Shown here one piece after another: positions 20,311-49,055 of a DNA stretch of 49,055 nt; the first letter of the stretch is position 1; each line of letters starts with the position of its first letter. The notes under the pieces are model-generated. The model saw nothing but the letters and a program-made list of their open reading frames with translations. It ran no database searches and was not told where the DNA came from. Made by a program: the position numbers and the translations under genes. The stretch comes from an uncultured Verrucomicrobiota bacterium (GTDB lineage Bacteria; Verrucomicrobiota; Kiritimatiellia; CAIVKH01), in the NCBI GenBank assembly GCA_937872895.1, contig CALMUP010000031.1, positions 1-49,055 of the forward strand, written 5' to 3'.

Positions 20311-20454
20311 GCGAACAGTTTGTAGCAAAACTGCACGGCGGAAACGAACAGGAATGTTCCGTCGGAAAGGGCGGCACGACCGGTCCAGTCCGCCGCCATC
20401 CGCCCCGGCAACTTTATTCTTCGTTTCCCGGCACGCCTTCTGTTAAATCCTCCC
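20311..20454. promoter_or_regulatory. Divergent promoter region between GT4 and GT2 genes
   Basis: In both directions the sequence TTCGTTTCC lies about 30-35 bases before the start codon. On the forward strand TTCGTT is followed after 17 bases by TTAAAT (20443-20448). On the reverse strand TTCGTT is followed after 18 bases by TACAAA. Both predicted starts fall within a few bases of the ATG, and neither gene shows a Shine-Dalgarno site. The -35 boxes are poor, so this is tentative. Confidence 0.35.
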
Positions 20455-24801: not shown

Positions 24802-24848
24802 GGTTATTGCTTCCTGCGATCCGGACGCGGTAAGCGACCGGAGGGGGC

Positions 24849-25994
24849 TCAATACATCCGGTATCCTGCGGTGAACACCACCGTGAACAGGGTCAGGAGC
24901 ATCAGGCTGAACATCAGCCACCCGGTGTCGGCCAGACGGTTTCGCACGCCAATCATCCCGAGCACCAGGTACACCGGAAAGATCATCAGGACATGTCGCT
25001 GAATCGACTCCAGTACATTCGATGACACAAAAAGGAACAGCAACATGCCGCCGTACACCAGATAGCTCAGGCGGACGCGGATGAAAAGTCCGGTGATCAA
25101 CGAGGCAAGGGCGAGGAGCACGGAGCCGTGATAGAGGATCTGCTCAAACGGGGGGTACTGCCGGGCGTGGGCGAAGGTCTCGTAGAACGGTACGACCTTG
25201 CGGTTCCACGAGGCGGTTGCCTTGGAGAAGGCGAACGCGTCACCGAACTGGTGGTGCAGGTAGAGCATGTACAGTGCCAGGCCGGCGGGAATCAGGGCGA
25301 GCCAGAGGATGGAGGAGCGGGGGCGGTTCCAGCGCCAGGGCCAGAGGCGGTTGCGCTCCACGCCGAGGTATTCCATGGCCACCGGGGCGAAGATCAGCAC
25401 GCCCGGCGTCTTGGCCAGGGCGAGCAGGCCGCCGCAGGCGCAGGCCCAGCCCCAACGCTGTTGGCGGGCCAGCAGCAACGTGGCCAGCGAGAGCATCAGG
25501 TACAGGCTTTCCGGGTAGAACAAGGAGAGGAAAAAGCCGGTCGGGAACACGCACAGGTAAAGCGCGGCGCGGTCGGCGAGCGCATGCGAGCCACCGTCCT
25601 GGATGACCAGTTTATAGAGCAGGCAGACGGCGGCGAACAGGAACAGGTTCGCGAGTACGAACCCGGTGACCACATACTCGCCGGTGATCCCGCCGAACAG
25701 GCGAACCAGCAGCGGGAACAGTGGGAAGAAGTGGACGTTGGACGGGGTACCCGGCTCGTAGTGATAGCCGGACTGGATGATGCCGAGGTACCAGTAGGAG
25801 TCCCATTGGAAGAACGGATCGGTGAAGTGGCCCTGCTTCTGGTACCACTTGAATTTGTCGATCCGCAGGTTGCTGTAGTAACCGGCGACGAGGATGGTCA
25901 GGCGCGACAGCAGGAAGTAGGCGCCGAGGGTCAACCAGGGCAATCGACCGGACCTGTCAGCAGGCGCCGGATTCGTAGTGGCGGTGGACGACAT
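24849..25994 (-). CDS. PIG-V / Gpi18-like membrane mannosyltransferase family protein
   Basis: This is a 381-aa polytopic protein with about nine helices. The motifs WDSYWYLGIIQSGY (about 64-77), HFFPLFPLLVRL (about 87-98) and FPTGFFLSLFYPESLYLML (about 150-168) match the PIG-V family. In eukaryotes that family adds the second mannose of GPI anchors. Bacterial and actinobacterial relatives use polyprenyl-phosphate mannose. The Asp in WDS is the expected catalytic residue. AAGG six bases upstream supports the ATG at 25994. It follows the giant surface-protein gene by 61 bases, suggesting possible O-mannosylation of that protein or of a lipid carrier; this is inference. Confidence 0.82.
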   Translation of the reverse strand: MSSTATTNPAPADRSGRLPWLTLGAYFLLSRLTILVAGYYSNLRIDKFKWYQKQGHFTDPFFQWDSYWYLGIIQSGYHYEPGTPSNVHFFPLFPLLVRLFGGITGEYVVTGFVLANLFLFAAVCLLYKLVIQDGGSHALADRAALYLCVFPTGFFLSLFYPESLYLMLSLATLLLARQQRWGWACACGGLLALAKTPGVLIFAPVAMEYLGVERNRLWPWRWNRPRSSILWLALIPAGLALYMLYLHHQFGDAFAFSKATASWNRKVVPFYETFAHARQYPPFEQILYHGSVLLALASLITGLFIRVRLSYLVYGGMLLFLFVSSNVLESIQRHVLMIFPVYLVLGMIGVRNRLADTGWLMFSLMLLTLFTVVFTAGYRMY

Positions 25995-26055: not shown

Positions 26056-29000
26056 CTACTGGTAGGGTACGCCGTTGGTGCCAAGCCAGAGCACGCGGTA
26101 CACGCGGCGGACATCGTTCGAGGCCTGGAGGTCGATGTACGGGATATCGCCGCCCACGGTCAGGTTGGTGACATCGCCGAGGTTGATCCAGACGTACTCG
26201 CGGTTGGTGCGGATGAAGTTCGTCGCGTACTGGATCTGGTAGTTTTCGTCCCAGGCGCCGCGCCAGATGATGCGGCTGCTATTGCCGGGCAGGGTGCTGA
26301 TGGCCGAGATGCGGTGCACGCCGAAGAAGGTGCGGATCTGGCCATCGTTGATGTCCCAGTAATTCGTGTTGCTGCCGCCCTCGCCGACGATGCGCCAGCG
26401 GGCGTTGAAGCTGTTGTAGGTCGGGGAGTTGGTCCAGATGATGTACTCCTGGTAGGCGGGCACGCCGGACTGGAGGGTCGTCCACTCGTTGCCGCCGTCG
26501 CCCGAGTACTGGACGCTGACCGTGAAGTCAAACGGGACGTTCAGCATGTACCAGGTCAGCGGGTACGGGTTCTCGAATTCAGAGATGGGCAGGAAGGCGT
26601 CGGCGGTGCGGGCCTGCACGATCTGGTTGGTCACGCCGCGGCTGGCATAGTAGGTGTTGCCGTAGGCACCGATGTTGATGCGGCCACCGTTCTCCATCGT
26701 TTCGTTGGTGAACGAGAGGAACGGGTTGCCGCGGTCGATCGCCCACGACGTATTGGTATCCATGACGAAGGTCTGCAGGTTCGTATCGAACCGGCCGGCC
26801 TGGCTTTGCAGGTGGAAATCGTCGGTGGCCACGCTGTGGAACAGCGGGTTGGTCACGGCGCTGCGGAAGTCCTTGAACTGCAGCCGCTGCCAGGTCAGCA
26901 GGTTGGTGAAGGTGCTGTAGATGAAGGTATTGCTGCGGGAGGCGGACCCGAAGAAGTACACGTTGTAATCGATGTTCGCGGTGAACACGGTGCCGGTTGC
27001 GCCGGCGATGGAAGCCTGCGCGTTCGAGGTCGCGACATCGTGGTAGAAAATGTTGTTCTGGATGGTCAGGTTCGGGCTGGCCAGCGCCTGGATGGCGGCC
27101 TCGCGGTTGTTCACGAAGGTGATGTTCTGGACGGTGACCGGCGAGGCGGCATCGATGTCGAGTCCGATGCGGCTGTTGTTCCAGATGCGGCTCGACCGGA
27201 TGAGGTGGTTGCTGCCGCCGATCATGCGAACGCCGATGTCGTTGGTGGATGAGCCGATGCCGATGAGCTGGTTGAACCGGTTGGTCTGGAGGGTCAGGCC
27301 ACGTTGTCCGTTCTGGAAGACCAGGTCGCGCAAGGTAACGAACGAGGCATTGACCAGCATGACATCACCCTGCCGGGTCGGGCGCCGGATGACCGTGCCG
27401 CCGTTGAGGGTATTCGTGCTGCCTTGGATGACCATCTGGCCGTTGGTGCTGCCGCCACGCGACCAGATGACGCGGATAATGGAGCTGGTATAGATGCCGG
27501 TATCCACATAAATGATGTCGGACGGCTCGGTATCGTAGGCGGCGAGCAGGTTTTCCAGGGTAGCCTTGGGCGTGGCCGGGGTGCGGCCATCGTTGGCGTC
27601 GTTGCCGGGCGCGGTAGTGTATACATCTCCGGTGGTCGAGCTGTCGTTGACGTAGAAGCTCAATACGTCGTTCCGAATATTGAAGATCGAATCCGTGGTA
27701 TCCTGGACGTTGGTATTCGACTCCAGTACCACGCGCCAGAGGGCATCGAGGGAGTTGGACGCCGTCGAGGCATCCCACACGTAGGAGCCGCCGGATACCG
27801 CGAGATCGGAAACGATGGTCTGCCAGTTGGCCCCGCCATCGGTCGAGTATTGCAGGGTCACCCGGTTGGTGGGATCAACCGCGCCGGACAGCCAGCGCAG
27901 GGTATTGGTGCCGCGCAGCACGCCGCCGTCGTTCATGGTCATGGCGTAGAGCCAGGCATTGGTGCGGCTGCGGCTGGCTTGAACCGTATTGCCGAAGGCG
28001 CCGATGTTGATCCGGTTGCCATTCGGCGCGGTCTCGTTCAGGAACTCGTCGAACGGCGCACCGGCATCGATGGCCGGGGAATGTTCCGCATCGGCGGTGA
28101 AGCCGGAGCCGTTCCATCGACCGGTCACCGATTTCAAGCGGTAATCACCGCCGGGTTCATCGGCGAACAGCGGGTCTCCGGTGATGCTGTTGGTATCCTG
28201 CCGCGAATTCTGCTGCCAGTAGATCAGGCGTTCCCACAAACCGTCCTGTGCATTGCCGAACCAGGCCCCGTTGCGAAGGCTGAAGAGGTTGAAGTCGGAC
28301 TGGACCACGCCGCCCTGGGTTTCGATGCAGTACCCGTTGCCGAGGATTCCGTTGGCGACCAGGATGTTGTTGCGCACGATCGACAAGCTGTCGAAGTCGA
28401 TTTGCTGGATCGCGGTCTGGTTGGCCACCAGCGTGTTGTTGATGACCTGGACATTCACCCCGCCGATCTTGACCAGCGGCGAATTGCTGCCTGCCACCAC
28501 GGAGTTGATCAGGCGGCTGTTATCGCCGAGCAGCTCCAATCCGCCATTGCGGACATATCCACGGCGCGCCAACACATCGTTGCCGCTCAACTTGACCAGG
28601 CCGTTGGTCACCTGGTAGCTCTCGATGACGCCGAGCGGACCGGCCAGCTCAATGCCCGACCGCTGCATCGATACATCGCGCAAGGTGATATTCGTGCCGG
28701 CGGCCTTGATCCCGGCGGAGAACAGGGACACGCGTTCCAGTTCGACGTAGGCGGCCTCGATCTCCAGTACGACCGGACCGGAAACACCCTCGGTAATGCC
28801 GAGGGCATCCCAGATCACGCCGTTGGTGCTGCCGCGGATGATGACCGGGTAAACGCTGTTACCGCCGTTGTCGAGACGAACCTTGGCAATGTCGTTCGAG
28901 GTGATGACATAGTAGCCGGTATCAAGGAGGACGACATCCTCCGGATCGATATCCCACGAATCCAGGACGGCGCGCAGGGTCGCCTTCGGGGCATTGCTGG

Positions 29001-32000
29001 CGATGCCGAGGTTGGCATCGTCACCTACCGCGGTGGTGTACACATCGCCGACGGTATTCGTATCGTTCACGAAGAAGGTAAACGGACCATTCAACCCGAA
29101 GATACGGTCGGTCTGGTCGTTGACATTGGTGTTGCCGGCCAGGGTCACGCGCCACTTGGTGGTTGGACTGCGGAATGGATTGGCGGAGAGGCTGTTCCAG
29201 AGGTAGCCGTCCTGGTCGATCGGAATATTGACCGCGATCGTGGACCAATTGGTTCCGGAGTCGATCGAGTAGTCGAGATCCACGCGGTTGGTCGGATCCA
29301 GGTTCCCGTAGAACCAGTACAGGGAGAAAATACCGCCGATACGGCCGCCGGCCATTGCGGTGACCGCGAGCAGCCATTCATTGGTGCGGCTGCGGCTGGC
29401 CTCGGACGTGTTGCCGTACAGGCCGATGTTGCGGCGCGATCCGTTGGGATCGGTTTCGAGGTCAAAGGTATCGGCGGGATTGCCGGTATCGATCATCCAG
29501 GAGAAGTCGGGATCGGTGGTGACGAACTGGCCGGAGACCGGGTCAAACCGGCCGGCCGGGCTGCGCGGATGGTAATCATCGGCGGCGGCATCGTTGAACA
29601 GCGGATCCACGCTCACCGAATGGACGTTCTGGGTCGTGCGCTGGGTGAACTGGGGCAAACCGGCAATCGGTTCGCCACTGAGCACGGCGTACGAAGCGCC
29701 GCCCTGCACAAAGAAGTTGTTGTAGTCGGCCAGCAGCAGGGTCTGGTTCAGGGCGAGTGCCCCGTTGGTCACGTTGCCATAGGCATGGAGCACACTGTTG
29801 CTGATGCGGAGACCACCTCCGCTGGCGGCGACGCCGTCACCGCCATTCGACCAGATGATCGAGTTCAGCAGGTAGAGGTCGCTGCCGGAAACATTGATGC
29901 CGTCACCGGAGCCGCGGGTCACCACCACCCGCTCCAGGGTATTGCTCGACGACTGGTTCATGTTGATGCCGGAAAAGCCGCAGTCGCGGATCAACAGGTT
30001 GCGGAAGTACATGTTGCCCGGGGTCGGCTGGATGTTGTTGAAGTAAATGCCGAGATTGGCACCCTCGAGCACCAGGTCCGCGATCTCGACATGGGAAACA
30101 TTCACCAGTTCGATCACCGACTCGTTGTTCTGGTCGGGTGGGGCGAAGGCATTGGTCACCACACGGTGGAGGATCGTGCCGCCCTCGTACCAGTTGGTGC
30201 TGCCCTGGATGACCATCCGGTTGGTCACGACACCGCCGTCATCGGCGAGGATGCGGATGTTGTTGGTCAGGGCGTAGAAGCCGGTATCCACATAGATCGT
30301 GTCACCGCCCTCCAGGTTGTAGCGGGCGAGCAAGGCGGAGATTGAAGACATCGGGGCATTGCTGACCGTGCCGATGTTGTCGGGATCACCGACGGCGGTG
30401 GTATAGATATCGCCGGCGACACTGCCGTCGTTGACATAGTAGCGGATCGGGCCGTTGCGGATGGTGAAGACCCCGCTGGTGTCGGCCACGGAAGGCAGGC
30501 TGTCGAGGGTGACGCGCCACAGGGCGATCGGGGTCGAGGTGATGGAACCCGAATCCCAGACATACTGACCATTGGTGGCCGGGTAGCCGGCAACGACCGA
30601 CTCCCACGCGATGCCGCCATTCACACTGTATTCCAGGGTCACGGTGGCATTGCTGTTCACGCCGCGGGCCAGCCAGATCAACGGCAGCGGGGTCGGAGCG
30701 ATGCCGCCATCGCGCATGGCCACGGCGAGAAGGCCGGCGTTGGTGGTGGAGCGGCTGGCCTCGGTCGTGTTGCCGAACCGGCCGACATTGATCCGGTTGC
30801 CGTTCGGCAGCGTTTCCAGGTTCGAGGCCAATGCCGGGTCGCCGGCATCAATCGCCCACGAGGTCAGGGTATCGGAGAAGACAAAACCCGGCAGGAAGGG
30901 GCTATACCGGCCGTTTTGGCTGAGCAGATGGAAGTCGCCAGAGGACGGATTGACGAACAAGGGATCGGTGCGGATCGAGTGAAGATCGGCATTCCATGCC
31001 TTCTGCCACTCGCTCAGCGCACTGAAACGGATACCGAGGCTGGAGTCACTCATCAAGGTGGTGTTGGTTCCGGTCCAGTACACGTTGTGGTCACCGGCAT
31101 AGCCGGCGACGGACGAGTTGATTTCAATGATCACGCTGCTATTGGTCGGGGCCGAGACAAAGGCCGAATTGTTGACCTGCAATGAGCCGAAAACATGTTG
31201 CACGCCACCGGAAACGTTGGCGAACATCGCACCGTTGTTCCAACTGATACTCGAATAGGCTCCATTGACCTGCAAGCCCCACCGCTGGTTCGACCAGGCG
31301 GCGGCGCGGCTGAACCGGCCGGAGATGACATTGTTCATGACGAAGCCGTTGACGTTGTTGCGGGCGCCGATCCAGGTCAGGTTGATGTCCTCGGCCGACG
31401 AGACTTCCAGCCCATTGCTGCTGCCGATGAAGGTCAGGTGGGACAGGTCGACATGCTTGGTTTCATTGATCAGGAACCCGGCGGAGCTCAACGGATTTCC
31501 CTGAATGACGGATCCGCCCGCGGCGGTATTGGTGCTGCCCACCAGGCGGATGGGATTGCCGGGTTCGCCGCTCTTCAGAATATCACCGACCAGTCCGAGA
31601 CGCATGCCCAGCGGATTGGTGACGAAGTAGGATCCGGTGTCCACATACAGCACGTCACCGGGACCAAAGGGATAACGATCCAGTGCGGCGCCGGGGTCGA
31701 GCATGGGGCGGGTAATCGCGAGGCCATCGTTGGTGTCCGACCCGATGGCGGTGGTATAGATGTCGCCCGAGGTGTTGGCGTCGTTGACGTACACCTGAAG
31801 GGCCTGGTTCTTGATGGTGAACGGCGAGGCCACCGACACCAGGGTGTTCGTATCGGTTTCGCTGATCACGCGCCAACGGGCGAGCTGGGTCACCGGCTCG
31901 CCGGAGGCATCCCAGACAAACCCGTCGGTATAAACCGGGATATTGCTGGCGACCACGCTGTAATCGACCCCGTTGAGGGCATACTCGAACCGCACCCGGG

Positions 32001-35000
32001 AATTGGTCGGCCAGTTGCCGGCCGCCCAGCGAATGGTGTTGGTCCCGCGAATCAGTCCGCCGTCATTCAGGGTCAAGGCGACCAACCAGCCGTTGGTGCG
32101 GCTGCGGCTGGCCAGGGCGGTATGGCCGTAATGGCCGATGTTGATCCGGTTGCCGTTGGGAAGCGACTCGTTGGTGGCAACAAAGGCGGGATCACCGGTA
32201 TCGATCAGCGGTGAATAGACCTCGAACGGGTCGTTGGTCAGCGTGCCGTTGAGCAGGAACCGGCCACTGGCGCTTTGCAGGGCGAAGTCACCGATGGTGG
32301 CGTTGGCGATCTGGGGATCATGGCTCAGCGAGCGCAGGTCATTGCCCCGATCCCGCTGCCAGTCAAGCAGGCGCGGGAAGAACTGGTTGCCGCCGAAACC
32401 GACCACCCGCTCGGCCAGCAGGGCATTGGCCTGCCGGTAGTAGGCATTGTAATCGGCGACGACATTGGTGACTTCGAGGCCGAGCAGGTAGATGCGGCCT
32501 TCCGATCCGCTGGCCTGCATCAGGTTGTTGCGCGCGGACACCTGGGCCCCCACCCCGACATTGACCGCGTTGCGGCTGCCCCAGATGGTGTTGTTGAACA
32601 GGTTGGCCTCGGCACCGGAAAGCACCTCGCCGACCGCCCGCTGGGCCAGGGCAATCCCGTTGGTGCCATTCTTCCAGAACAGGTTGTTCTGCAGGCGGGT
32701 GCTGGTGGAACCGGCGACCAGTACGCCGTTGAGCCGGTTCTCCACCGCGCGCACATTCTCCAGCGTGACCGACTTGCTGAGCTCGATCCCGACGCCGTTT
32801 TCGCCATTGATCACCGTGATGTCCTGCAGCTTCACGCCCTCGGCGCGATCGACGCGGATTGCGTTACCCTGCTTGGTAATGCGGTCAAAGACGGTACCAT
32901 TCGAGTTGAGGTTGGTGCTGCCGCGGATAATCACCGGACGGTTCGAGGAACCCGAGTCGAGTTCGCCGATCACGATATCGATGTTGCCGGCATAGTTTCC
33001 GGTATCCACGTACACGATATCGCCCGGTTCAAGATCCACCTCGTTCAGCAGCGCCTGCAGCGTGGCCTTCGGCGTGGAGGGCAGGAATCCGTTGTTGGAA
33101 TTGTTGCCGACCGCGGTGGTGTACACGTCGCCGCCGGTGTTGGCATCGTTGACGAAGTAAGGGATCGATCCATCCTGGGTCAGGGCAAAGAACACCTCGT
33201 TGGTGGAACTGAGCGAGGGATCGGTCTGGCTGCTGATCCGCCAGAGGCCGGCGGCGGCGCGGCCGAAATCAGCGCTGTCCCACTCGTAGGACTGGTTTAC
33301 CGCGACCACGTTGGTGGCGATATTGGTCCAGGTGGAGCCACCGTCGTTCGAGAACTCCAGATGGACGAGCTGGCTGTTCACCGGGCCGGAGGAGTGCCAG
33401 CGGAGCACGATGTTCGAACTGCCACGGCCGCCGTCGCGGAAGGTGATCACCTGGAGTGTACCGTTGGTCGGCGAGATCGAGGCTTGGGCGGTATTCCCGT
33501 ACAACCCGATGTTGATGCGGGAACCGTTGGGTGCGGGTTCCGATCCGAAGGAGAAGGTCGGGTCGCCGGCGTCGATCAAGGGCGACAACTGGTCGAATCC
33601 ATTGGTGACGTACCCCACCCCGGTCACGAATCGGCCGAACGGGCTCTGCGGATGGAAGTCGCCGGCGGGCGCATTGGCGAAGCGCGGATCGCTCTGGAAG
33701 CTGCGCAGGTCCAGTCCGGTATCGTTCTGCCAGTTCACCATGCGCTGGTAGCGGCGGCGGGCACCGGGATACTGGGCACCGCGCAATTCGGCAATGAAGG
33801 CATTCGTCGATGCGAACAAGACGTTGTAATCGGCGTCCAGGGTGCCGATGCTGGAGATGACCGGTCCATCGTTGCGCGACCAGCCCACGGCATCGGTGCT
33901 GTTCATCACCAGGACGTTGTTGCGGGCACGCAGCAGGGCCAGGTCGGCGATGTAGGCGCCAACCTGGTTCTGGTACAGGATGGAGCTTTGAAGCAGCACG
34001 TTGGTACTGCGGCGCACATCGATGGCGATATCGCCATAACCGGCCGCCACGATGTGGCGGATGCGAGTGTCATAGCTGTCGCTCAAGGTGATTCCCTTGT
34101 TGCCGACATTCAACCGCAGCCACTCGAAGGAGGAGAATGGCGCATCCACGGCGGTAATCGACGTACCGGACAGAGTCGGGAAGTGCTGGACCCCCAGATG
34201 GATCAACCGAACTCCGAAGGCCTCGCTCAGGGAGAAGGCGGTGGAGCCATTCAGGGCGATGAACCGCGAACCACCGTTCACCTCGTTGGTGCTGCCTCGA
34301 ATGGTCAGCGTGGGATTGCCGGCCAACAGGGAGGACAGGTTGTTGTACTCCGTGAAGGCGTCCCACTGGTCGATGAACACCGGGCTGGTCAGCAGGTATT
34401 CACCGGTATCGACATAAATGGTGTCGCCGGGCTCCAGGTCGTAATCGGCGATGACACTGGCGAGGGTCAGGCGCGGCGAGGCCGGGGAGATGCCGGAGTT
34501 GAAGTTGTCGCCGGCGGCCACGCTGTACACATCACCGGTGGTGAACCCGTCGTTGACGAAGAGGGCCAGCGGTTGGTTGCGGAACTGGAACGGGGTGGCA
34601 TTGGTGGCGGCAATGCCCGGATCGTTTTCACTGGTGACGCGCCAGCGTCCGAGCCAGGCGGCGGACGAACCGGTATCGGTGAACAGCAACTCGGCGGAGG
34701 CGACGACGTTGGACTGGATGAGCAGCCAGGCCACCCCGTTGTTGGTCGAGTATTCCACCCGTACGGTGTGCGACGAGGCGACGCCGAGGGCGCGCCAGGT
34801 CAGGGCCACGGAGGCACCCTCGGCACGCCCGCCGTCGCCGAAACGCGCCGCGATCAGCCGGCCATCGGCGGGACTGCGACTGGCTTCCACGCTGTTGCCG
34901 AACATGCCGATATCCACCCGGCCGCCGTTGGGGGCGGTTTCCAAGGAAAACGCCGAGAACGGTGACCCGGCATCGACCAGCGGCGAGGTTGCGCCATCGA

Positions 35001-38000
35001 GTACGAAGGTCCCGGTCGCGGGATCAAAACGACCGGCCGAACTGAGCGGATGGAAATCCCCTTGTGCGGCATTGGCAAAGCCGGGATCACCGCTGATGGA
35101 ACGCAGGTCGCGTTCGGTGTCGCGGCTCCACGTACCGACCTTGTCCCACTCGCGCGGGAACTTGGAACCGGTAACGGTCTGGCGACCGACCCAGCCGCCA
35201 TTCACGAGGTGGAAGGCATTGTAATCGGCCGCGAGGGTCGATTGACTCAGGATGTAAGCGAATTTGTCGGGTCCGCCGAAGACCCCGAAGACCGAGTTGA
35301 ACACGGAGAGGTCGGAGATGTTGGCGTTGATCGCGGTGGTCGCATTCGACCAGAGCACGAGGTTGCCGAAATCGGCCGCCGTGCCCTGTTGGAGGGTGAT
35401 GCCGGTGTTGGCGTTGCGGATGGCCGAATTGCGGATGATCGTGCGCGCCGATTGCTCGATACTCACGCCGATGTTGCCGCCGGCGAGTTCCAGATGGCGC
35501 AGGTTCACATCGGCGCTCTGGATGACGGCGATGCCGAGGTTGGCGCCGGACATCCGGAAATGCTCGATCGATACCCCGGGAGCACGGAACAGGCGGATGC
35601 CTTCCGCCGTGCCGTTAAAGAACAGGCGTGAGCCCCCGGCGGTGGTGTTGGTGCTGCCCACCAGCCGGAATCCGACATCGAGCTGGTCGATGACGATCGA
35701 GGTATTGTTCGAATACCATCCGGTATCGACATAAATGACATCCCCGGTGATGACGTCATAGCGGCTGATCACCTGGGCGATGGAGAGCATGGGTGTCAAG
35801 GGCGTCGCGCCGTTGTTGGTACTGATGCCGGTTGCGGTGGTGTACACGTCGCCGGTGGGATTGGCATCGTTCACATAGAAGAACACCGGGCCGTTACGCA
35901 CGGCAAAGGGGCGTTGCGACATGCCACTGACGGCGGGATCGGTCTCGCTGACCACGCGCCAGAAGCCGAGCACGGTGGACGGGATCAGTGTGGTGTCCCA
36001 GTTGATCGACGAGATGCCGGGCGGGAGGTTCGAGGCGATGACCGTCCAGGTGACGCCTTCATCGCCGGAGAATTCGACCCGGGCGGTGTGGGCGGTGGCC
36101 GCACCGCGGGCGACCCAGTAGAGGACCACATTGGTACCGGATACCGAGCCGCCGTCGTTCAGGCTGCCGACCAGCAGGACCGGATTGGTCGGCGAGAGGC
36201 TGGCCTGGTAGGTGTTGCCGAAGGCACCGATGTTGGCGCGACCGCCGTTGGGCTCCTGCTCGAGGCTGAATGGGGCTGCCGGGTCGGCGGCATCCACCAG
36301 CGGCGAGGTCTCGGCATCCAGCTCGAAGGCCAGGGTTTCCGGGTTCCATCGGCCCGCCTGGCTGCGCAGGTGGAAACGGCCCTGGCCGGCATCGATGAAC
36401 CGCGGATCGGTGGACAGGCTGTTGCCGTCGCGGCCGGTGTCGCGCGTCCAGGCGGTGAGCGTATTGTATTCGCGGGCGAAGGACTCGTTGGGGAAGGAGA
36501 TCCGGCCGATGCGGGCGCCGTCCGTCACATGATAGGTATTGTAATTCGCCTGCAGGTTGGCGGTCGAGGGACCTTCGAAGAGGAGACGTCCGCTCCCGTT
36601 GGCGCCGAGCACGGAGTGGGTGATGGTGACCCCGGCGATGTCGGTGACGGCCCGGTTGGTCGAGGCCCAGATGACGCCGTGGTCGAAGCGGACATTGCGC
36701 GAGTTGAACACGTTCAAGCCGCGGTTGCGGGCCGCGCGGGAAATGCTGTTGCGCAGGGTGACGGCAACGGAATTGCTGACCGAGAAACTGCTCTCCGCCG
36801 CAGTGACCCGGAGGTTGTTCAAGGTCACGTTCGTGCTCGCCTGCATGGCCACGCCGAAGGGCAGGATGGTGTTGACCGGTTCGAAGTTCAGGTTCTCGAT
36901 GACGAGGCCGCGGCCGGCTTCGACGTAGATGCCGTACCCGCCAAAGATCGAACCACCCAGGGAGGTATTCGTACTGCCGACGATGTACACGGGATTGGTG
37001 GCGTTGCCGGTATCTTCCTGGTCAATGCGGGTCACGTCACCGAGGGCATAGGTGCCGGTATCGATGTACACCCAGTCGCCCGGCTCAAGGTCATAGGCCT
37101 CCAACACGTCGCGGAGGTGGCGTTTCGGCTGGTTGGGCGACAACCCGGTATTGGTGGCAATGCCGATCGCCGTGGCGTAGGTGTCGCCAGCCAGCGAATC
37201 GTCGTTCACATAGAACGCGAAGTTGGTATTGCGGACCGCGAACGGAAGATCACTGCGGGTGTTGATGCCGGGCTGTGGTTCGTACACCACGCTCCAGATG
37301 TAGTTGAAGCCGGAGGAGACGGTCAGTGAATTGAAGGCATACTGCAGGTTGTAGGTGGGGATGTTGGAGGCAAGACCGATCCAGGAGAGGCCGTTGTTGC
37401 TGGAAAGGCGGACCTGCACGGTGGTGCCGGTGAAATCACCGCGGACGTCCCAGCGCAGCACCACGTTGGTGCCGGAGACATTGCCGCCGTCGTTGTAGGA
37501 GCGGATGAACAGGGTCTGGCTGGTCGTGCTCAGGCTGGCGGCGGGGGTATTGCCCTCATGGCCGAGGTTGACCTGCGATCCATTGGGTGCCGGTTCAAGG
37601 TTGAAGGCATGGGTCGGGTTGCCGGCATCGATCATGATCGAGGTCACGGCATCGGTCACCAGGCCGGACGGGGTATAACGGCCGATCCGGCTGCGGAGCG
37701 AGAAGTTGCCGTTCTCCGGCTCCACAAACTCGGGATTCATGGTGAGGCTGTTGGTATCCTGTCCGGTGAACTGCTGCCAGGCGGTGGCATTGCGGAACAA
37801 CAACGGCGCGGACATGGCCGGCGCGGTCGCGCTGATGGTTTCAAACAAGCGGGCGAATTGCGCGCCATCACCGATCTGCACATTGTTGTAATCCGACTGG
37901 ATGGATGAACCGAGGGCAAGATCGAGGGCGAACTTGCCGGAGCCGGAGGCGCTGATCAGGGTATTGGTCAGGAAAACCCGGGATGCGCCCAGGGCGCGCA

Positions 38001-41000
38001 CGGAGAAACTGTTTGACCACAGGACACCGTTCAGGATGCGCACACTGGGTTCGATGCCCTGGGCGAAGGGACGCATCAGCACGGCGGCACTGTCCGACCG
38101 GTTGGTCACATCCTGTACCACGATGCGCTGCAGGACGACGTTGGTGGAGCTCTCCACGAAGAACCCGCTGACCAGCAGGTTGGCGCCGGCATCGGAGATG
38201 TTGGCGGCCGAACGGTAGTGGATCGCCTCATAGGTGATGTTGGTGGATCCACGGATGACAAATCCGCGGGTGCCGTTGGTGACGAGGAGGTCGCGGAAGA
38301 GGTAATTGGCCAGGCCGTTGGCGGTGATGACCGGTCCCTGTCGTCCAAGGTTGATGCGCGTGCCCCCGGCGGCGGAGTTGGTGCTGCCTTGAACGACGAC
38401 CGGGTTGGTGACGACGGTGCTGCTGTAGTTGGCATCGAGGGTCACGGTGTTGGTAAAGGAATAGGACCCGGTATCGATCAATACGCGGTCACCCGGCGCC
38501 GGGATGTAACGGGTGAAGATATCGCGCAGGCTGGCCACCGGCGTCGCCGCGGTCAGGCCATCGTTGGTCGAATTTCCGATGGCGGTGGTGTACACATCCC
38601 CGGTCGTGCTGGCATCGTTGATATAGTAGGTGATGGCACCGTTGTTCAGGGTAAAGGCAACGGCGGAGGTGGCCGCTACCGAGGGATCGGTCTGGCTGGT
38701 TATGCGCCACCGGCCCAGCGGCGTGGAAGGGAAGCTGGCGCTGTCCCACAGGTAGGAACCGGCGGAAGCGGCCAGGTTGGTGCCGATGTTCGTCCAGGTC
38801 ACGCCGTTGTCGAAGGAGTAATCGACAAACACCTGGTGCCCGGTTACCGCGCTGTTGGCGAACCAGAAGAACACATTGGTTCCCCGCATCGTGCCCCCGT
38901 TGTTCAAGGTCAAGGTGAGCAACAAACCGTTGGTCGGACTCATGCTGGCTTCGGGATGGTTGCCGTACAGGCCGATGTTGATCCGACCGCCATTGGGCGC
39001 GGGTTCGGCGGCGAACGCAAAGGAGGGATCACCGGCATCGATCATGACCGAACTGACCAGGTCGGTCGCGAGGGCACAACCGGCGCTTATGAAACGACCG
39101 GCGGTGCTTTGAAGATGGAAGTCGCGGGTGGCCGGATTGACAAAACCGGCGGAATGGCTCAGCGAGCGAAGGTCGTTGGTGGTGGACTGTTGCCAACTGG
39201 ACAGGAATTTCAGGAGCTTGCCGTTGAGCGAGGCGACATCGGCGAGATCATCGGCGAGGATGTTGTTGTAATCCGAACGGAACACGCCATCCACGGTGCC
39301 GATGAATACCGAACGGCCCTCCCCGGCGACCTGGAGCACGTTGTTGGTCAGGTTGACCGAACCACCGAGGATACGCACGGCGCTGCCGCCGTTGGACCAG
39401 ATCACCGAATTCAACACGCGGGTTGCGGCATTGGACAGGCCGAACCAGCCGGATCCGTTGTGGGCGAACGCGGAGCGGCGGAAGGTGATGCCGGATCCGT
39501 TGCGCATGTCAACGGCATTGGTCACGGAGTTGTACACCCGCAATCCATCGAAGGTCAGGTTCTCGCCCCGGTCGGAACGGATGCCTGAACCGGCCTGGCG
39601 GATGATGATGTTCGAGACGGCGATGTGTTTGGCGTTGGTCATGAACAGGCCCGAGCCTGCGGCGTTCAGGTTACCGGAGAGTTCAACCAGTGGTTCACCC
39701 ACCCCGCTGCAGAGCGTCGCGCCGACGATGCTGATGGACGAGGTGGCTATGCCCTGGTCGAGCGGACCGATCACGACGCCGCTGCCGACCGAGTAGATTC
39801 CGTTATCGATGCGGATGGTGTCGCCACCTTCCAGGTCGAACCGGTCGAACACCGCGGACAGGGAGTTCAGCGGGCGATTGGATGTGGCCACCCAGTTGGT
39901 CGCGGATCCGGCCGAGGTGGTGAAAACATCGCCTACGGTCGAGGCATTGTTCACGAAGAAGGTCAACGGCTGGTTGCGCACCGAGAAGAAATTCGTGGTC
40001 TGGTTGAAGAGGTTGGTGTTGTCCAGCGAGGTCACCCGCCACAGGCCGGGGGCGAACGAATTGGTGGCCAGGGTATTCCAGGCAATCGACTCCGCAGCAG
40101 CGAGTGTCCCGGTCGAGAGCTGGTTCCACGTCTCACCACCATCCGGGGAAACCTCCACCCGCACCAGCGCGCCGGTGGCGAGGCCGGAGGCGACCCAGTG
40201 CAGGGTCGCGGTGCCGCGGACCCACCCGCCCTGGGTCAGGTTGGCGGCAAAGAGCCGGGCGAAGTCCACCCGGCTGGCTTCGATCGTGTTGCCGAACACG
40301 CCGATGTTGATCCGGCCTCCGTTGGGGGCGGTTTCGTTGGAGAAATCAGCGGTCGGATCGCCGGCATCGATCAGCGGGGAGGTCGTGGTGTCGGTGGTCC
40401 AGCCGAGAATCGGATCAAACCGCCCCTGTACGGTCTGGCTGCGCGGATGGAAATCACCGCTGTTGGGATTGGCGAATTGAGGATCCAGATCGGTGGAGAA
40501 ACGGTCCTGACCGGTTTCAGACTGCCAGGCCCCGAGGGTATTGATGTCGCGACCCGCGCCAGCGAGGTTGGCGATGGAGGCATTGTTCTCGAGGTAATAA
40601 CTATTGTAGTCGGCCGTTACATTGGTTGTGCCGGGCACGCCATAAATGGCCGAGGAGGATCCGCGTGCGGCGAAGGCGCTGTTGGTCACCAACAGCCGGG
40701 CACCGGTGGTACGCACCGCATTCGAGGCATTCATCCAGAATACGGAATGGGCAATGGTGATGTTGCTGCCGCCGCTGACCTGCAAGCCGTCGAGGGCGTT
40801 CTGGCGACTCACCACATACCGCAACACGATATCGCTGGCGTTGTTGAGCAAGACACCATTCAGGAAATTGGTTTCCAGGTTGATCCGCTCGAGCAGGATA
40901 CGGCTGGCGCCGGATATGGATATGCCGTGGGTGCGGCGCTGGATGGTCAGGTCGCGCAAGGCGAAGTCCTGAAGGCCGGACGACAAGGTAAAGGCCGGCG

Positions 41001-44000
41001 TGGTGGCGGTGGGTGGACCACGGATGATCGTACCGCCGGCCAATCTGTTCGTACTGCCCTGAATGACCGTAGGATTGCCGTTGGTGCCTGACTGCAGCGG
41101 GGACACCGTGATGGTGATGGAGTTATCATACAACCCGGTATCGACGTAGATGACATCGCCGGCGGCCAAGGTGAAATTGGTCAGGATACCGTTCACCGAG
41201 GCCTTGGGCAGGTCCATGGTGGTGCCGAGGTTCACATCATTGCCGGGCGCGGTGCTAAAGACGTCGCCAACCGTCGAGGCATCGTTGACGTAGTAGCGGT
41301 ACGGGCCGTTGCGGAAGGTAAAATCGATCCGGTTCGAGGCGGCCACGGATGTATCCGACTCCAGCACGATACGCCACCGGGTGTTGCGCGACGAGGTGAA
41401 GTTCGTGTTCACCACCGTATAGATGCCACTGGTCGCACTCACGTTGGTGGCGAAGGTGTTCCAGGAGCTGCCGGAGTTGAAGGAAAACTCAATCCGCACG
41501 GTGGCGCCGGTCGGCAGGTTGCCGTAATTCCAGCGGATGGAATCGGTCAATACATTCAATTGCCCGCCATCGTTGTAGGTCAGAGCTTGAAGCCAGGCAT
41601 TGGTCCGGCTGCGACTGGCCAATAGCGTACCGCCAAACTTGCCGGCATTGATCCGCTGCCCGTTGGGTGACGACTCATTGGTCCAGGCGACCGAGGCAGG
41701 ATCACCGAAATCAATCAGCATGGAGTGGGTGGTATCGACCACGAAGTTGGTGAGCGCGGGATCATACCGACCGGCAATGCTGCGGGGGAAAAACCACATG
41801 TTCGTCGGGTTGGAGAATTGGGGGTCGGCAAAGGTGGAGTTGTTCCAGCCCGAAGCGGACTTCTGAAGGGCATTCAGATCGGGAAATCCACCGCCGATCA
41901 GGGTATTCCAAAATACGTTGTAATCGAAAGACTGGGCCACCGCGGTCACGAAACTGGTGCTGCCCACCAGGATGCTGTTGCCGATGGTCATGAAGGTGGA
42001 GGGCGAATTGAATGCGGCGAGGTTATTGCTCCAACTGATACCGTTCAACCAGGTATTGCCGGATGAACTGTTACCGGCCAGCAACCCGGTGCCATTGAAC
42101 GCGGCCACCGCGCCGATGAACTGGTTGTTCTGCGACGACCACACCCGGTACCCGGTGGTGTTTTCCCGTGAAATAACCTGGCGGATAATCGAATCGCGCA
42201 CATTCTCGAAGAAATTGACGCCCACGCTGCCAATCCGGGTGGTCAGGTTGCGCAGCTCGATGAACGTGGTGGCGTTCAGGTTGAACACGTCAAACGACAC
42301 GCTGTTGCGGCTGAACACCGTGGAGGCATTGAAGTTCGTACTGCCCTGGATGACCACATACCGGTTGGTTTCGCCATAGGTGCGGTTATCGATGAAAATA
42401 GTGACGCCGGTGTAGGAGCCCGCGTCAACATAGACGATGTGGTCGCCGCGCAGCACGTAGTTGGTCAATACGGACATCAATGTGGCTTTCGGTGTCGCCG
42501 GGGATGCCCCGTCGTTGGCGTCGTTGCCGACTGCGGTGGTGTAAACATCACCCACCGTCGAATTGTCGTTCACGTAGTACGGCACGAGACCGAGACCACG
42601 CAACGCGAACGGGATCCGGTTGGTATCCGCGGTCAGGGTCGCTTCGCAAGTCACCCGCCAGCGGGCGATCGGGGACGAGGTGATGGCATTGGCATTCCAA
42701 AGGAACGAACTGTTGTATGCCGGCACGTTCGAGGCGATCAGCAACCAACTCGCGCCGTTGTTCAATGAATAATCAAGGCGAACCGTCGCCGACGTCGGAA
42801 CTCCCGAAGCCAGCCAGCGCAGGCTGTTGGTCCCATAGAAGGTTCCGCCATCGTTGTACGATAATACCTGCATGCAGGGGTTGGTCCGGCTGCGGCTGGC
42901 GTCCGGCTGTCCACCATACAGGCCGATGTTCAGACGCCCGCCGTTGGGCGCGGGCTCGTTAGTCCACGCGGTGGACAGGGGATTGCCGAAATCGATCAGG
43001 ATCGAATGCACCGCATCGGTAACGATCAGGCCGGTTGCGGGATTAAGCCGGCCCTGCACGCTTTGCGGTCGGAAATCCAACCCGCCGGGATTGGCGAAAC
43101 GCGGATCCGCCACGGTGCTGAAGAAATTGGTTGCCGAAGCCGCCTGGAGATCGGTCAGGTTGACCAGGTAGTTGGTGCTGCCGCCGGGACCGCTCCGGTT
43201 CAACATGTAGGTGAGGTTCCAGAACACGTTGTAATCACCGCGCCACCAGGCCCGGTTGAACACCGTGCCACCCACGAACACGCTGTTGTGGACCGTGTCG
43301 GTATCGGAAAACGCGCCGTCGATGTGCACGGTGTTGTTCCAGAAGACACTTTGATCGACAAAGAATCCGCGGGGAAAGGCCCCGGCCAGACCCAGCGCGG
43401 CCACACCCACCGAATTGCTGACAAACAAGCAGCGGAAAATTCGGCTGTCCCCCGTGCCGGAACCGATGCCGACATCCATGCCGCGGGTGTTGCTGACAAA
43501 CCAGCAATCATCGAATTGCGGACGCCGCGTGGCATGCGCCGACCATGCCACGCCGGCCGTGGAGTTGCGGAATATCAGATTGCGAAAGTTCACGAAGTTG
43601 GCATTGAGCTGAACCGCCACGCCACCGGGAGAAGTCAGGGTCGTACCACCCGCCTGGTAGTTCGTGCTGCCTATGATCACGATGTTGTTGGTCGCGGTGC
43701 CGACGTGGTTCGTGCCGATGGTCACGCTGTTCGTGTAGGCACCGGTATCGATATACACCACATCGCCCGACACCAGCGAGACCGTCGCAAAGAGGTTGGT
43801 CAACGTCCGCTTCGGCTCGGATGGCAAGGTTCCACTATTGGCATCGTTGCCAATGGCCGTGGTGTACACGTCACCATTGGTTACGGTGTTGTTGATGTAG
43901 TAGGCGGCGGATTGCGCTTCACGCGCCCCCCCGACCCCGAGACAACCAATGGCAAGTAAAAGCAACCAATTACGCGGCAAAAGGTTGCAAAAAAAGCGCG

Positions 44001-44022
44001 AGCTGATCATGTGCGTTTCCAT
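26056..44022 (-). CDS. Giant exported repeat protein: thirteen beta-helix plus beta-sandwich modules
   Basis: The product is about 5,988 aa (roughly 640 kDa) if read from ATG at 44022, or four residues shorter from ATG at 44010. The frame stays open to a TTG at 44100, but those extra codons look like leader. A signal peptide is clear: a basic start, a hydrophobic core (NWLLLLAIGCLGVGG) and a likely cut after AREAQSA. Then come thirteen modules of about 450 residues. Each starts with a YYVND/FFVND strand and GDVYTTA, then DTGxY, GSTN, a ladder of short parallel beta-helix turns, DYN, DPxF, an SxxGR block and PNGxRINIG. A beta-sandwich follows, with NDGG, YSxxxGxxW and a closing RWRV. The last ~90 residues form a different domain with WINLG and RRVYRV, resembling C-terminal domains common in Verrucomicrobia. 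No sortase, PEP-CTERM or type-9 signal is seen. Cys is rare. It is probably a surface fibre, adhesin or glycan-binding protein. Confidence 0.9.
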   Translation of the reverse strand: METHMISSRFFCNLLPRNWLLLLAIGCLGVGGAREAQSAAYYINNTVTNGDVYTTAIGNDANSGTLPSEPKRTLTNLFATVSLVSGDVVYIDTGAYTNSVTIGTNHVGTATNNIVIIGSTNYQAGGTTLTSPGGVAVQLNANFVNFRNLIFRNSTAGVAWSAHATRRPQFDDCWFVSNTRGMDVGIGSGTGDSRIFRCLFVSNSVGVAALGLAGAFPRGFFVDQSVFWNNTVHIDGAFSDTDTVHNSVFVGGTVFNRAWWRGDYNVFWNLTYMLNRSGPGGSTNYLVNLTDLQAASATNFFSTVADPRFANPGGLDFRPQSVQGRLNPATGLIVTDAVHSILIDFGNPLSTAWTNEPAPNGGRLNIGLYGGQPDASRSRTNPCMQVLSYNDGGTFYGTNSLRWLASGVPTSATVRLDYSLNNGASWLLIASNVPAYNSSFLWNANAITSSPIARWRVTCEATLTADTNRIPFALRGLGLVPYYVNDNSTVGDVYTTAVGNDANDGASPATPKATLMSVLTNYVLRGDHIVYVDAGSYTGVTIFIDNRTYGETNRYVVIQGSTNFNASTVFSRNSVSFDVFNLNATTFIELRNLTTRIGSVGVNFFENVRDSIIRQVISRENTTGYRVWSSQNNQFIGAVAAFNGTGLLAGNSSSGNTWLNGISWSNNLAAFNSPSTFMTIGNSILVGSTSFVTAVAQSFDYNVFWNTLIGGGFPDLNALQKSASGWNNSTFADPQFSNPTNMWFFPRSIAGRYDPALTNFVVDTTHSMLIDFGDPASVAWTNESSPNGQRINAGKFGGTLLASRSRTNAWLQALTYNDGGQLNVLTDSIRWNYGNLPTGATVRIEFSFNSGSSWNTFATNVSATSGIYTVVNTNFTSSRNTRWRIVLESDTSVAASNRIDFTFRNGPYRYYVNDASTVGDVFSTAPGNDVNLGTTMDLPKASVNGILTNFTLAAGDVIYVDTGLYDNSITITVSPLQSGTNGNPTVIQGSTNRLAGGTIIRGPPTATTPAFTLSSGLQDFALRDLTIQRRTHGISISGASRILLERINLETNFLNGVLLNNASDIVLRYVVSRQNALDGLQVSGGSNITIAHSVFWMNASNAVRTTGARLLVTNSAFAARGSSSAIYGVPGTTNVTADYNSYYLENNASIANLAGAGRDINTLGAWQSETGQDRFSTDLDPQFANPNSGDFHPRSQTVQGRFDPILGWTTDTTTSPLIDAGDPTADFSNETAPNGGRINIGVFGNTIEASRVDFARLFAANLTQGGWVRGTATLHWVASGLATGALVRVEVSPDGGETWNQLSTGTLAAAESIAWNTLATNSFAPGLWRVTSLDNTNLFNQTTNFFSVRNQPLTFFVNNASTVGDVFTTSAGSATNWVATSNRPLNSLSAVFDRFDLEGGDTIRIDNGIYSVGSGVVIGPLDQGIATSSISIVGATLCSGVGEPLVELSGNLNAAGSGLFMTNAKHIAVSNIIIRQAGSGIRSDRGENLTFDGLRVYNSVTNAVDMRNGSGITFRRSAFAHNGSGWFGLSNAATRVLNSVIWSNGGSAVRILGGSVNLTNNVLQVAGEGRSVFIGTVDGVFRSDYNNILADDLADVASLNGKLLKFLSSWQQSTTNDLRSLSHSAGFVNPATRDFHLQSTAGRFISAGCALATDLVSSVMIDAGDPSFAFAAEPAPNGGRINIGLYGNHPEASMSPTNGLLLTLTLNNGGTMRGTNVFFWFANSAVTGHQVFVDYSFDNGVTWTNIGTNLAASAGSYLWDSASFPSTPLGRWRITSQTDPSVAATSAVAFTLNNGAITYYINDASTTGDVYTTAIGNSTNDGLTAATPVASLRDIFTRYIPAPGDRVLIDTGSYSFTNTVTLDANYSSTVVTNPVVVQGSTNSAAGGTRINLGRQGPVITANGLANYLFRDLLVTNGTRGFVIRGSTNITYEAIHYRSAANISDAGANLLVSGFFVESSTNVVLQRIVVQDVTNRSDSAAVLMRPFAQGIEPSVRILNGVLWSNSFSVRALGASRVFLTNTLISASGSGKFALDLALGSSIQSDYNNVQIGDGAQFARLFETISATAPAMSAPLLFRNATAWQQFTGQDTNSLTMNPEFVEPENGNFSLRSRIGRYTPSGLVTDAVTSIMIDAGNPTHAFNLEPAPNGSQVNLGHEGNTPAASLSTTSQTLFIRSYNDGGNVSGTNVVLRWDVRGDFTGTTVQVRLSSNNGLSWIGLASNIPTYNLQYAFNSLTVSSGFNYIWSVVYEPQPGINTRSDLPFAVRNTNFAFYVNDDSLAGDTYATAIGIATNTGLSPNQPKRHLRDVLEAYDLEPGDWVYIDTGTYALGDVTRIDQEDTGNATNPVYIVGSTNTSLGGSIFGGYGIYVEAGRGLVIENLNFEPVNTILPFGVAMQASTNVTLNNLRVTAAESSFSVSNSVAVTLRNSISRAARNRGLNVFNSRNVRFDHGVIWASTNRAVTDIAGVTITHSVLGANGSGRLLFEGPSTANLQANYNTYHVTDGARIGRISFPNESFAREYNTLTAWTRDTGRDGNSLSTDPRFIDAGQGRFHLRSQAGRWNPETLAFELDAETSPLVDAADPAAPFSLEQEPNGGRANIGAFGNTYQASLSPTNPVLLVGSLNDGGSVSGTNVVLYWVARGAATAHTARVEFSGDEGVTWTVIASNLPPGISSINWDTTLIPSTVLGFWRVVSETDPAVSGMSQRPFAVRNGPVFFYVNDANPTGDVYTTATGISTNNGATPLTPMLSIAQVISRYDVITGDVIYVDTGWYSNNTSIVIDQLDVGFRLVGSTNTTAGGSRLFFNGTAEGIRLFRAPGVSIEHFRMSGANLGIAVIQSADVNLRHLELAGGNIGVSIEQSARTIIRNSAIRNANTGITLQQGTAADFGNLVLWSNATTAINANISDLSVFNSVFGVFGGPDKFAYILSQSTLAADYNAFHLVNGGWVGRQTVTGSKFPREWDKVGTWSRDTERDLRSISGDPGFANAAQGDFHPLSSAGRFDPATGTFVLDGATSPLVDAGSPFSAFSLETAPNGGRVDIGMFGNSVEASRSPADGRLIAARFGDGGRAEGASVALTWRALGVASSHTVRVEYSTNNGVAWLLIQSNVVASAELLFTDTGSSAAWLGRWRVTSENDPGIAATNATPFQFRNQPLALFVNDGFTTGDVYSVAAGDNFNSGISPASPRLTLASVIADYDLEPGDTIYVDTGEYLLTSPVFIDQWDAFTEYNNLSSLLAGNPTLTIRGSTNEVNGGSRFIALNGSTAFSLSEAFGVRLIHLGVQHFPTLSGTSITAVDAPFSSFEWLRLNVGNKGITLSDSYDTRIRHIVAAGYGDIAIDVRRSTNVLLQSSILYQNQVGAYIADLALLRARNNVLVMNSTDAVGWSRNDGPVISSIGTLDADYNVLFASTNAFIAELRGAQYPGARRRYQRMVNWQNDTGLDLRSFQSDPRFANAPAGDFHPQSPFGRFVTGVGYVTNGFDQLSPLIDAGDPTFSFGSEPAPNGSRINIGLYGNTAQASISPTNGTLQVITFRDGGRGSSNIVLRWHSSGPVNSQLVHLEFSNDGGSTWTNIATNVVAVNQSYEWDSADFGRAAAGLWRISSQTDPSLSSTNEVFFALTQDGSIPYFVNDANTGGDVYTTAVGNNSNNGFLPSTPKATLQALLNEVDLEPGDIVYVDTGNYAGNIDIVIGELDSGSSNRPVIIRGSTNLNSNGTVFDRITKQGNAIRVDRAEGVKLQDITVINGENGVGIELSKSVTLENVRAVENRLNGVLVAGSTSTRLQNNLFWKNGTNGIALAQRAVGEVLSGAEANLFNNTIWGSRNAVNVGVGAQVSARNNLMQASGSEGRIYLLGLEVTNVVADYNAYYRQANALLAERVVGFGGNQFFPRLLDWQRDRGNDLRSLSHDPQIANATIGDFALQSASGRFLLNGTLTNDPFEVYSPLIDTGDPAFVATNESLPNGNRINIGHYGHTALASRSRTNGWLVALTLNDGGLIRGTNTIRWAAGNWPTNSRVRFEYALNGVDYSVVASNIPVYTDGFVWDASGEPVTQLARWRVISETDTNTLVSVASPFTIKNQALQVYVNDANTSGDIYTTAIGSDTNDGLAITRPMLDPGAALDRYPFGPGDVLYVDTGSYFVTNPLGMRLGLVGDILKSGEPGNPIRLVGSTNTAAGGSVIQGNPLSSAGFLINETKHVDLSHLTFIGSSNGLEVSSAEDINLTWIGARNNVNGFVMNNVISGRFSRAAAWSNQRWGLQVNGAYSSISWNNGAMFANVSGGVQHVFGSLQVNNSAFVSAPTNSSVIIEINSSVAGYAGDHNVYWTGTNTTLMSDSSLGIRFSALSEWQKAWNADLHSIRTDPLFVNPSSGDFHLLSQNGRYSPFLPGFVFSDTLTSWAIDAGDPALASNLETLPNGNRINVGRFGNTTEASRSTTNAGLLAVAMRDGGIAPTPLPLIWLARGVNSNATVTLEYSVNGGIAWESVVAGYPATNGQYVWDSGSITSTPIALWRVTLDSLPSVADTSGVFTIRNGPIRYYVNDGSVAGDIYTTAVGDPDNIGTVSNAPMSSISALLARYNLEGGDTIYVDTGFYALTNNIRILADDGGVVTNRMVIQGSTNWYEGGTILHRVVTNAFAPPDQNNESVIELVNVSHVEIADLVLEGANLGIYFNNIQPTPGNMYFRNLLIRDCGFSGINMNQSSSNTLERVVVTRGSGDGINVSGSDLYLLNSIIWSNGGDGVAASGGGLRISNSVLHAYGNVTNGALALNQTLLLADYNNFFVQGGASYAVLSGEPIAGLPQFTQRTTQNVHSVSVDPLFNDAAADDYHPRSPAGRFDPVSGQFVTTDPDFSWMIDTGNPADTFDLETDPNGSRRNIGLYGNTSEASRSRTNEWLLAVTAMAGGRIGGIFSLYWFYGNLDPTNRVDLDYSIDSGTNWSTIAVNIPIDQDGYLWNSLSANPFRSPTTKWRVTLAGNTNVNDQTDRIFGLNGPFTFFVNDTNTVGDVYTTAVGDDANLGIASNAPKATLRAVLDSWDIDPEDVVLLDTGYYVITSNDIAKVRLDNGGNSVYPVIIRGSTNGVIWDALGITEGVSGPVVLEIEAAYVELERVSLFSAGIKAAGTNITLRDVSMQRSGIELAGPLGVIESYQVTNGLVKLSGNDVLARRGYVRNGGLELLGDNSRLINSVVAGSNSPLVKIGGVNVQVINNTLVANQTAIQQIDFDSLSIVRNNILVANGILGNGYCIETQGGVVQSDFNLFSLRNGAWFGNAQDGLWERLIYWQQNSRQDTNSITGDPLFADEPGGDYRLKSVTGRWNGSGFTADAEHSPAIDAGAPFDEFLNETAPNGNRINIGAFGNTVQASRSRTNAWLYAMTMNDGGVLRGTNTLRWLSGAVDPTNRVTLQYSTDGGANWQTIVSDLAVSGGSYVWDASTASNSLDALWRVVLESNTNVQDTTDSIFNIRNDVLSFYVNDSSTTGDVYTTAPGNDANDGRTPATPKATLENLLAAYDTEPSDIIYVDTGIYTSSIIRVIWSRGGSTNGQMVIQGSTNTLNGGTVIRRPTRQGDVMLVNASFVTLRDLVFQNGQRGLTLQTNRFNQLIGIGSSTNDIGVRMIGGSNHLIRSSRIWNNSRIGLDIDAASPVTVQNITFVNNREAAIQALASPNLTIQNNIFYHDVATSNAQASIAGATGTVFTANIDYNVYFFGSASRSNTFIYSTFTNLLTWQRLQFKDFRSAVTNPLFHSVATDDFHLQSQAGRFDTNLQTFVMDTNTSWAIDRGNPFLSFTNETMENGGRINIGAYGNTYYASRGVTNQIVQARTADAFLPISEFENPYPLTWYMLNVPFDFTVSVQYSGDGGNEWTTLQSGVPAYQEYIIWTNSPTYNSFNARWRIVGEGGSNTNYWDINDGQIRTFFGVHRISAISTLPGNSSRIIWRGAWDENYQIQYATNFIRTNREYVWINLGDVTNLTVGGDIPYIDLQASNDVRRVYRVLWLGTNGVPYQ
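26330..43910 (-). repeat. Thirteen diverged intragenic modules of ~1,350 bp
   Basis: The first codons of the module-opening strand (YYVND-like) lie near 43905, 42578, 41297, 39963, 38629, 37214, 35882, 34564, 33160, 31796, 30444, 29078 and 27658, giving periods from about 1,280 to 1,420 bases. In protein numbering from ATG 44022 these are about residues 40, 482, 909, 1354, 1798, 2270, 2714, 3153, 3621, 4076, 4527, 4982 and 5456. Conserved words are scattered and the modules differ strongly between them, so the duplication is old or under diversifying selection. Short DNA words coding GDVYTTA, DTG and GSTN remain nearly constant. Confidence 0.9.
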
Positions 44023-48939: not shown

Positions 48940-49055
48940 GGGGGGGGGGGGGGGGGGGGGGGCGGGGGGAAGAAAACCCGCGGGGAGGGGGGCGGCCTCC
49001 CGTGCTGGTGAAAACGACGCCCGCGAAGGGGTGGGCGGAAACAGACAGTCCCCCC
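48940..49055. other. Poly-G run and low-complexity contig end (probable artefact)
   Basis: There are 23 consecutive G (48940-48962), then a G-rich stretch and sequence of different texture ending in CCCCC. It breaks a conserved reading frame. Long poly-G is typical of two-colour Illumina dark-cycle reads extended at a contig end. No gene is called here. Confidence 0.75.

Follow-up and report, generated by a model that had tools for sequence, protein, structure and literature searches.

Here, we describe an ~18-kb gene of an uncultured member of the class Kiritimatiellia whose predicted product, an exported protein of ~6,000 residues, is built from thirteen distinct modules held in constant number and order by its complete orthologues. 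Sequence comparison within the class identifies this giant protein as an ancient, positionally conserved protein of Kiritimatiellia. We suggest, with a probability of about 0.4, that it is a non-enzymatic rod of the cell surface or matrix that has structural and binding functions and works with the cell's own glycan.

The giant gene, its modules and their fold

The gene is encoded on the minus strand at 26056-44022 of the window, i.e., the entire 49,055-nucleotide stretch of DNA analysed here. A first, sequence-only reading had described one uninterrupted 18-kb frame with a signal peptide, thirteen modules of about 450 residues and a distinct tail of about 90 residues, and each of these features was recovered. 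The frame of 6014 codons is open from 44100 to the stop codon at 26056-26058, translation would start at ATG 44022 or ATG 44010, and a plausible signal peptide follows either start and directly precedes module 1, as it does in the complete orthologues. The thirteen modules have 428-473 residues each and are followed by a tail of 84 residues that is distinct from the modules and conserved. The gene is single-copy in its genome, a search for plasmid carriage gave no match, and the protein is low in Lys (0.53%) and Cys (0.17%). Its parts are as follows.

26056..44022, minus strand: giant gene, encoding signal peptide, 13 modules and tail; frame open to 44100
43906..44022, minus strand: predicted Sec signal peptide region (approximate), without strict lipobox; from sequence, motif scan and the same pattern in orthologues
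42589..43911, minus strand: module 1
41305..42588, minus strand: module 2
39970..41304, minus strand: module 3, with a PF13229 match and a weak Disaggr_assoc match
38638..39969, minus strand: module 4
37225..38637, minus strand: module 5
35890..37224, minus strand: module 6
34573..35889, minus strand: module 7
33169..34572, minus strand: module 8
31804..33168, minus strand: module 9, structure predicted (pLDDT 94.5)
30451..31803, minus strand: module 10
29086..30450, minus strand: module 11
27667..29085, minus strand: module 12, the longest and the best conserved between genomes
26311..27666, minus strand: module 13
26059..26310, minus strand: C-terminal tail domain, 84 residues, only clear copy in this genome

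The modules belong to the right-handed beta-helix superfamily on the basis of a Pfam match and a predicted fold. Of five stretches searched with Pfam Beta_helix (PF13229), four scored above its gathering score, and an AlphaFold2 model of module 9, built with 30 sequences, consists of a right-handed beta-helix followed by a beta-sandwich (pLDDT 94.5, pTM 0.92). In fold, this model comes closest to glycoside hydrolases and to lyases of alginate, pectate and rhamnogalacturonan (Z of about 20-25); AlgE4 and PfbA, an adhesin, follow near Z 20. A sequence comparison with solved structures gave the C5-epimerase AlgE4 as the best match (E 2.5e-7). According to DSSP on the same model, the sandwich has seven to nine strands; Ig and FN3 chains are absent from the list of structural neighbours, which is dominated by the beta-helix and barely probes the sandwich. 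A model of modules 12-13 and the tail (pLDDT 77.5) is too weak in places for inter-module angles. Assuming typical geometry, with ~ten coils of 0.48 nm plus the sandwich, a module would measure ~8-9 nm and the array, if extended, ~110 nm; the first reading had estimated roughly 10 nm per module and a rod of more than 100 nm.

The signal peptide indicates that the giant protein is probably Sec-exported. No anchor and no outer-membrane export route were identified, in line with the first reading, which had seen no known anchoring signal: a motif scan of the window protein found no LPxTG, RTX, PEP-CTERM or strict lipobox motif. Thus, the protein lacks the C-terminus of sortase-anchored or PEP-CTERM proteins, the GGxGxD or C-terminal RTX nonapeptide repeats of RTX adhesins exported by type 1 secretion and the lipobox of lipoproteins, which is also not conserved in the signal peptides of the orthologues. 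With only 84 residues after module 13, it also lacks the C-terminal beta-barrel (about 300 residues) of classical autotransporters. A role of the tail as a type 9 secretion CTD or general sorting signal is not supported, as it matched only the giant gene in its own genome at E <0.01. In one orthologue (G109, L101 12734-13225), the tail domain is doubled in tandem.

Module number and positional identity

Among 346 genomes of the class, 36 have a match to the giant protein at E 1e-60 or better, and named records assign relatives to Kiritimatiellae/Verrucomicrobia, some of them isolates with the labels marine and goat rumen. A scan of genome contigs with module 6 gave no match. All 13 complete orthologues (G000, G017, G021, G029, G068, G077, G109, G111, G117, G119, G121, G123 and G124), which represent six families, have exactly 13 modules; in G117, module 1 is split into two profile matches and the count was still taken as thirteen. 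Their frames have 5916-6054 codons, and the array from the first to the last module spans 5763-5898 residues (5839 ± 43, SD 0.7%), while array identity between families is only 32-46%. Seven of the 13 belong to one family with shared synteny. The first reading had named a module number produced by assembly as grounds for refutation. Modules of the window protein are 26-39% identical to each other and their DNA matches mostly at 60-80%, so that short reads can distinguish them and the count is credible; as the same count was also obtained in independent assemblies, a repeat-assembly artefact is ruled out. The array had been called unusual in size and regularity; the architecture stands, but it is shared across the class rather than peculiar to this genome.

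Modules also have identities that follow their positions. First, in a tree of the 169 modules of the 13 complete orthologues, all 13 genomes group as a pure clade, with support of at least 0.96, at each of positions 3, 4, 8, 9, 10, 11, 12 and 13; at positions 1, 5, 6 and 7, the pure clade contains seven, and the pure clade of seven at position 2 is less well supported. Second, modules of the same genome do not cluster, the largest pure clade of this type having 3 members. Third, module length is position-specific (F = 36.7), module 12 being the longest on average. Fourth, position-specific profiles built from the 13 genomes and then run on held-out genomes read the modules in order in G001, G002, G007, G034, G051, G115 and G120. 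The order also holds in G003, apart from one ambiguous call that gave 7 at position 5, and in G078, there preceded by one additional N-terminal module. Altogether, the pattern is one of inheritance as a unit and not of array turnover by unequal crossing-over. The retention of all thirteen units, in unchanged order, by distant relatives suggests that the length of the rod and the identity of each unit matter.

The constraint on module number applies to the main clade only, as some cousins have other numbers. G078 has fourteen modules, with its 5' end at a contig edge, and G115 lacks most of the module 1 beta-helix. Divergent cousins have 2-9 modules overall: nine in G035 and about eight in G046 (both family f17), the former with positions 1, 2, 4 and 13 recognisable, six in G100 and two or three in members of f31; a few are found in the Hydrogenedentota genome G603 and in two genomes of other classes. 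In G007 (L057/L058), ~three frame changes interrupt a gene in which all thirteen modules are present, reflecting either sequencing error or decay. In G035 (L092), ~930 residues of other sequence follow the ninth module, and in G201, G198 and G197 (L161-L163), 2-3 N-terminal modules are followed by ~1,500 residues without module match. Contig L100 (G604), labelled Omnitrophota, carries modules 11-13; 13 other genomes of this phylum had no match, and the contig is probably misbinned.

It is a tentative further step, which we hold possible rather than likely, that selection has fixed the module number at thirteen over class-level divergence, every module keeping a positional identity of its own, and thereby made the protein a length standard or an ordered scaffold for the cell surface or the glycan layer.

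The surrounding locus and the proposed role of the rod

The giant gene is surrounded by genes for the synthesis and modification of glycans, which were assigned as follows.

47788..49053, minus strand: Acyl_transf_3 membrane O-acyltransferase, running off the contig end
46560..47846, minus strand: AlgX-like SGNH O-acetyltransferase
45346..46260, plus strand: GT2 glycosyltransferase
44101..45279, minus strand: GT2 glycosyltransferase, directly upstream of the giant gene
24852..25934, minus strand: PIG-V-like GT-C glycosyltransferase, first gene downstream of the giant gene
23881..24921, minus strand: NAD-dependent sugar epimerase/dehydratase
22762..23871, minus strand: GT4 glycosyltransferase
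21570-22556, plus strand: glycosyltransferase
20455-21456, plus strand: glycosyltransferase
19207-20328, minus strand: glycosyltransferase
17796-19214, minus strand: weak PMT_2-like
16606-17796, minus strand: sugar aminotransferase DegT

Further away, the window has two alpha-amylase-family genes (5028-7142 and 9360-11075), one of them with CBM48. In G007, G017, G021, G077 and G109, a homologue of the upstream GT2 is encoded within 8 kb of the giant gene, and MBOAT genes are found near it in other genomes. GT2 proteins are enriched among its neighbours (23 of 143 flanking versus 2 of 99 control proteins from other stretches of the same genomes; Fisher p 1.7e-4), in a test that is not fully independent, as one family with shared synteny supplies 7 of the 13 orthologues and seven or more related loci. 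A region that contains UppS and PurA is close to the giant gene in families f1, f8 and f37, consistent with an old locus. In four genomes, a VanZ-like gene overlaps the stop codon of the giant gene and has extra sequence after its VanZ-like part (L045 6757-7635, L051 6418-7281).

We suggest that the thirteen-module rod would be exported by Sec to the outside or the surface of the cell, where each beta-helix would offer a long flat face, the sandwiches would join the beta-helices and the tail would cap the end. Rather than being an enzyme, the rod would have structural and binding functions and would work with a surface glycan or exopolysaccharide made by the surrounding synthesis genes. We infer a surface location, glycan binding and a module number that is kept because reach or order matters. 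This role is supported by the fold neighbours, which comprise polysaccharide-active and polysaccharide-binding proteins as well as adhesins such as PfbA, and by the O-acyltransferases, GT-C and sugar-modifying enzymes that adjoin the giant gene. Against it, the beta-helix bodies show little of the conservation that one would expect of a binding face. Polysaccharide loci are also common sites for unrelated surface genes.

Alternatively, the nearby GT2, GT-C and GT4 enzymes may glycosylate the giant protein itself, which would then be a heavily glycosylated surface glycoprotein, e.g., a stalk or surface-layer fibre. A PIG-V-like GT-C as the first downstream gene, a DPM1-like GT2 ~1 kb downstream in several orthologues and a content of Ser, Thr and Asn of 27% of residues fit this idea. 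However, N-X-S/T sequons are not enriched (104 observed versus 96 in shuffles), and the AlgX-like and MBOAT-type O-acyltransferases and the epimerase point to a polysaccharide, and we regard this explanation as unlikely.

Lower still is the likelihood that the protein is a multi-domain enzyme with thirteen beta-helices acting on polysaccharide as lyases or epimerases, either AlgE-like or as proposed for Ca. Menyafoubacter. AlgE4 is the best sequence match among solved structures, the fold matches are led by pectate, alginate and rhamnogalacturonan lyases, and PMC12057145 proposes carbohydrate degradation for a protein of similar size. Conservation within the modules argues otherwise. Counting positions with at least 90% conservation over the 13 orthologues as conserved, 22.6% of the N-cap, 23.5% of the C-cap and 15.8% of the sandwich are conserved, as opposed to 5.2% of the beta-helix body. 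Only 3 of 1918 beta-helix positions are conserved charged residues, none of them Lys, and within the seven-genome family there are 12; this near absence is evidence against a shared catalytic site. The AlgE catalytic motif Y-G-x-D-P-H was not found in the 169 modules, in which an isolated DPH triplet occurs once, and the conserved catalytic Lys/Arg and calcium-binding acids that PL6 and PL9 enzymes have on the beta-helix face were not found in the 13 orthologues. Thirteen shared active sites are therefore not supported; single modules could be active in single lineages.

It is equally improbable that the protein contacts other cells or particles, as a long-reach adhesin or in predation. In favour are its giant size, predicted export, PfbA among its fold neighbours and beta-helix bodies that diverge quickly, as ligand-binding faces can. 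Against are the absence of an RTX motif and of any visible tip-specific or toxin domain, the range of hosts from rumen to digesters and sediments and the constant module number, whereas the repeat number of giant RTX adhesins differs widely (PMC7493085). The first reading had offered adhesion, glycan binding or prey contact as candidate functions. Because of the polysaccharide-locus context, a role with the cell's own glycan is favoured over prey contact.

Relation to known proteins and significance

Among the papers searched for Kiritimatiellae together with a beta-helix, only PMC12057145 was found, which reports a ~6000-residue protein of tandem CASH beta-helices in Ca. Menyafoubacter (Auribacterota, PUNC01) and near relatives and proposes that it degrades algal polysaccharide. 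As described there, this protein resembles the giant protein in size, signal peptide, absence of a transmembrane helix and tandem beta-helix domains, and it has a disaggregatase-related region, reminiscent of the weak Disaggr_assoc match in module 3. By contrast, it belongs to another phylum and is reported with PL6, Rhs, MSCRAMM and TSP3 features as well as disorder. Compared by description only, it may be a relative. This report lowers the novelty of the architecture, but its text gives no module number and describes neither a fixed count nor positional orthology.

Like the giant protein, the AlgE mannuronan C5-epimerases, with their A and R modules, are modular exported beta-helix proteins, and we count the O-acyltransferase and glycosyltransferase genes near the giant gene as a further likeness; however, the giant protein has thirteen beta-helices and no RTX-type R modules, and the catalytic DPH motif is absent save in the one module. 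PL9, PL6 and related lyases (1ru4, 6kfn) share the beta-helix fold of one module (Z 23-25) but not the tandem array or the scarcity of conserved charged residues in the bodies. PfbA of pneumococcus shares the surface beta-helix fold (Z 20), while it has a single beta-helix, a different anchoring and a host of a different phylum. Giant RTX adhesins likewise form exported rods of great length from repeated beta domains; their repeats, however, are often near identical and differ in number between proteins and strains (PMC7493085), whereas the modules of the giant protein are divergent, constant in number and free of RTX motifs.

The 18-kb gene keeps thirteen distinct, ordered modules across families that are ~32-46% identical. 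Giant bacterial repeat proteins are usually seen as arrays with drifting copy number. The conservation of the array as a unit makes the protein more interesting than first stated. The module profile makes it possible to find genes of this kind, which are at present annotated as scattered beta-helix proteins, and the giant gene provides a testable case for a surface rod of fixed length in uncultured bacteria whose envelope is nearly unknown.
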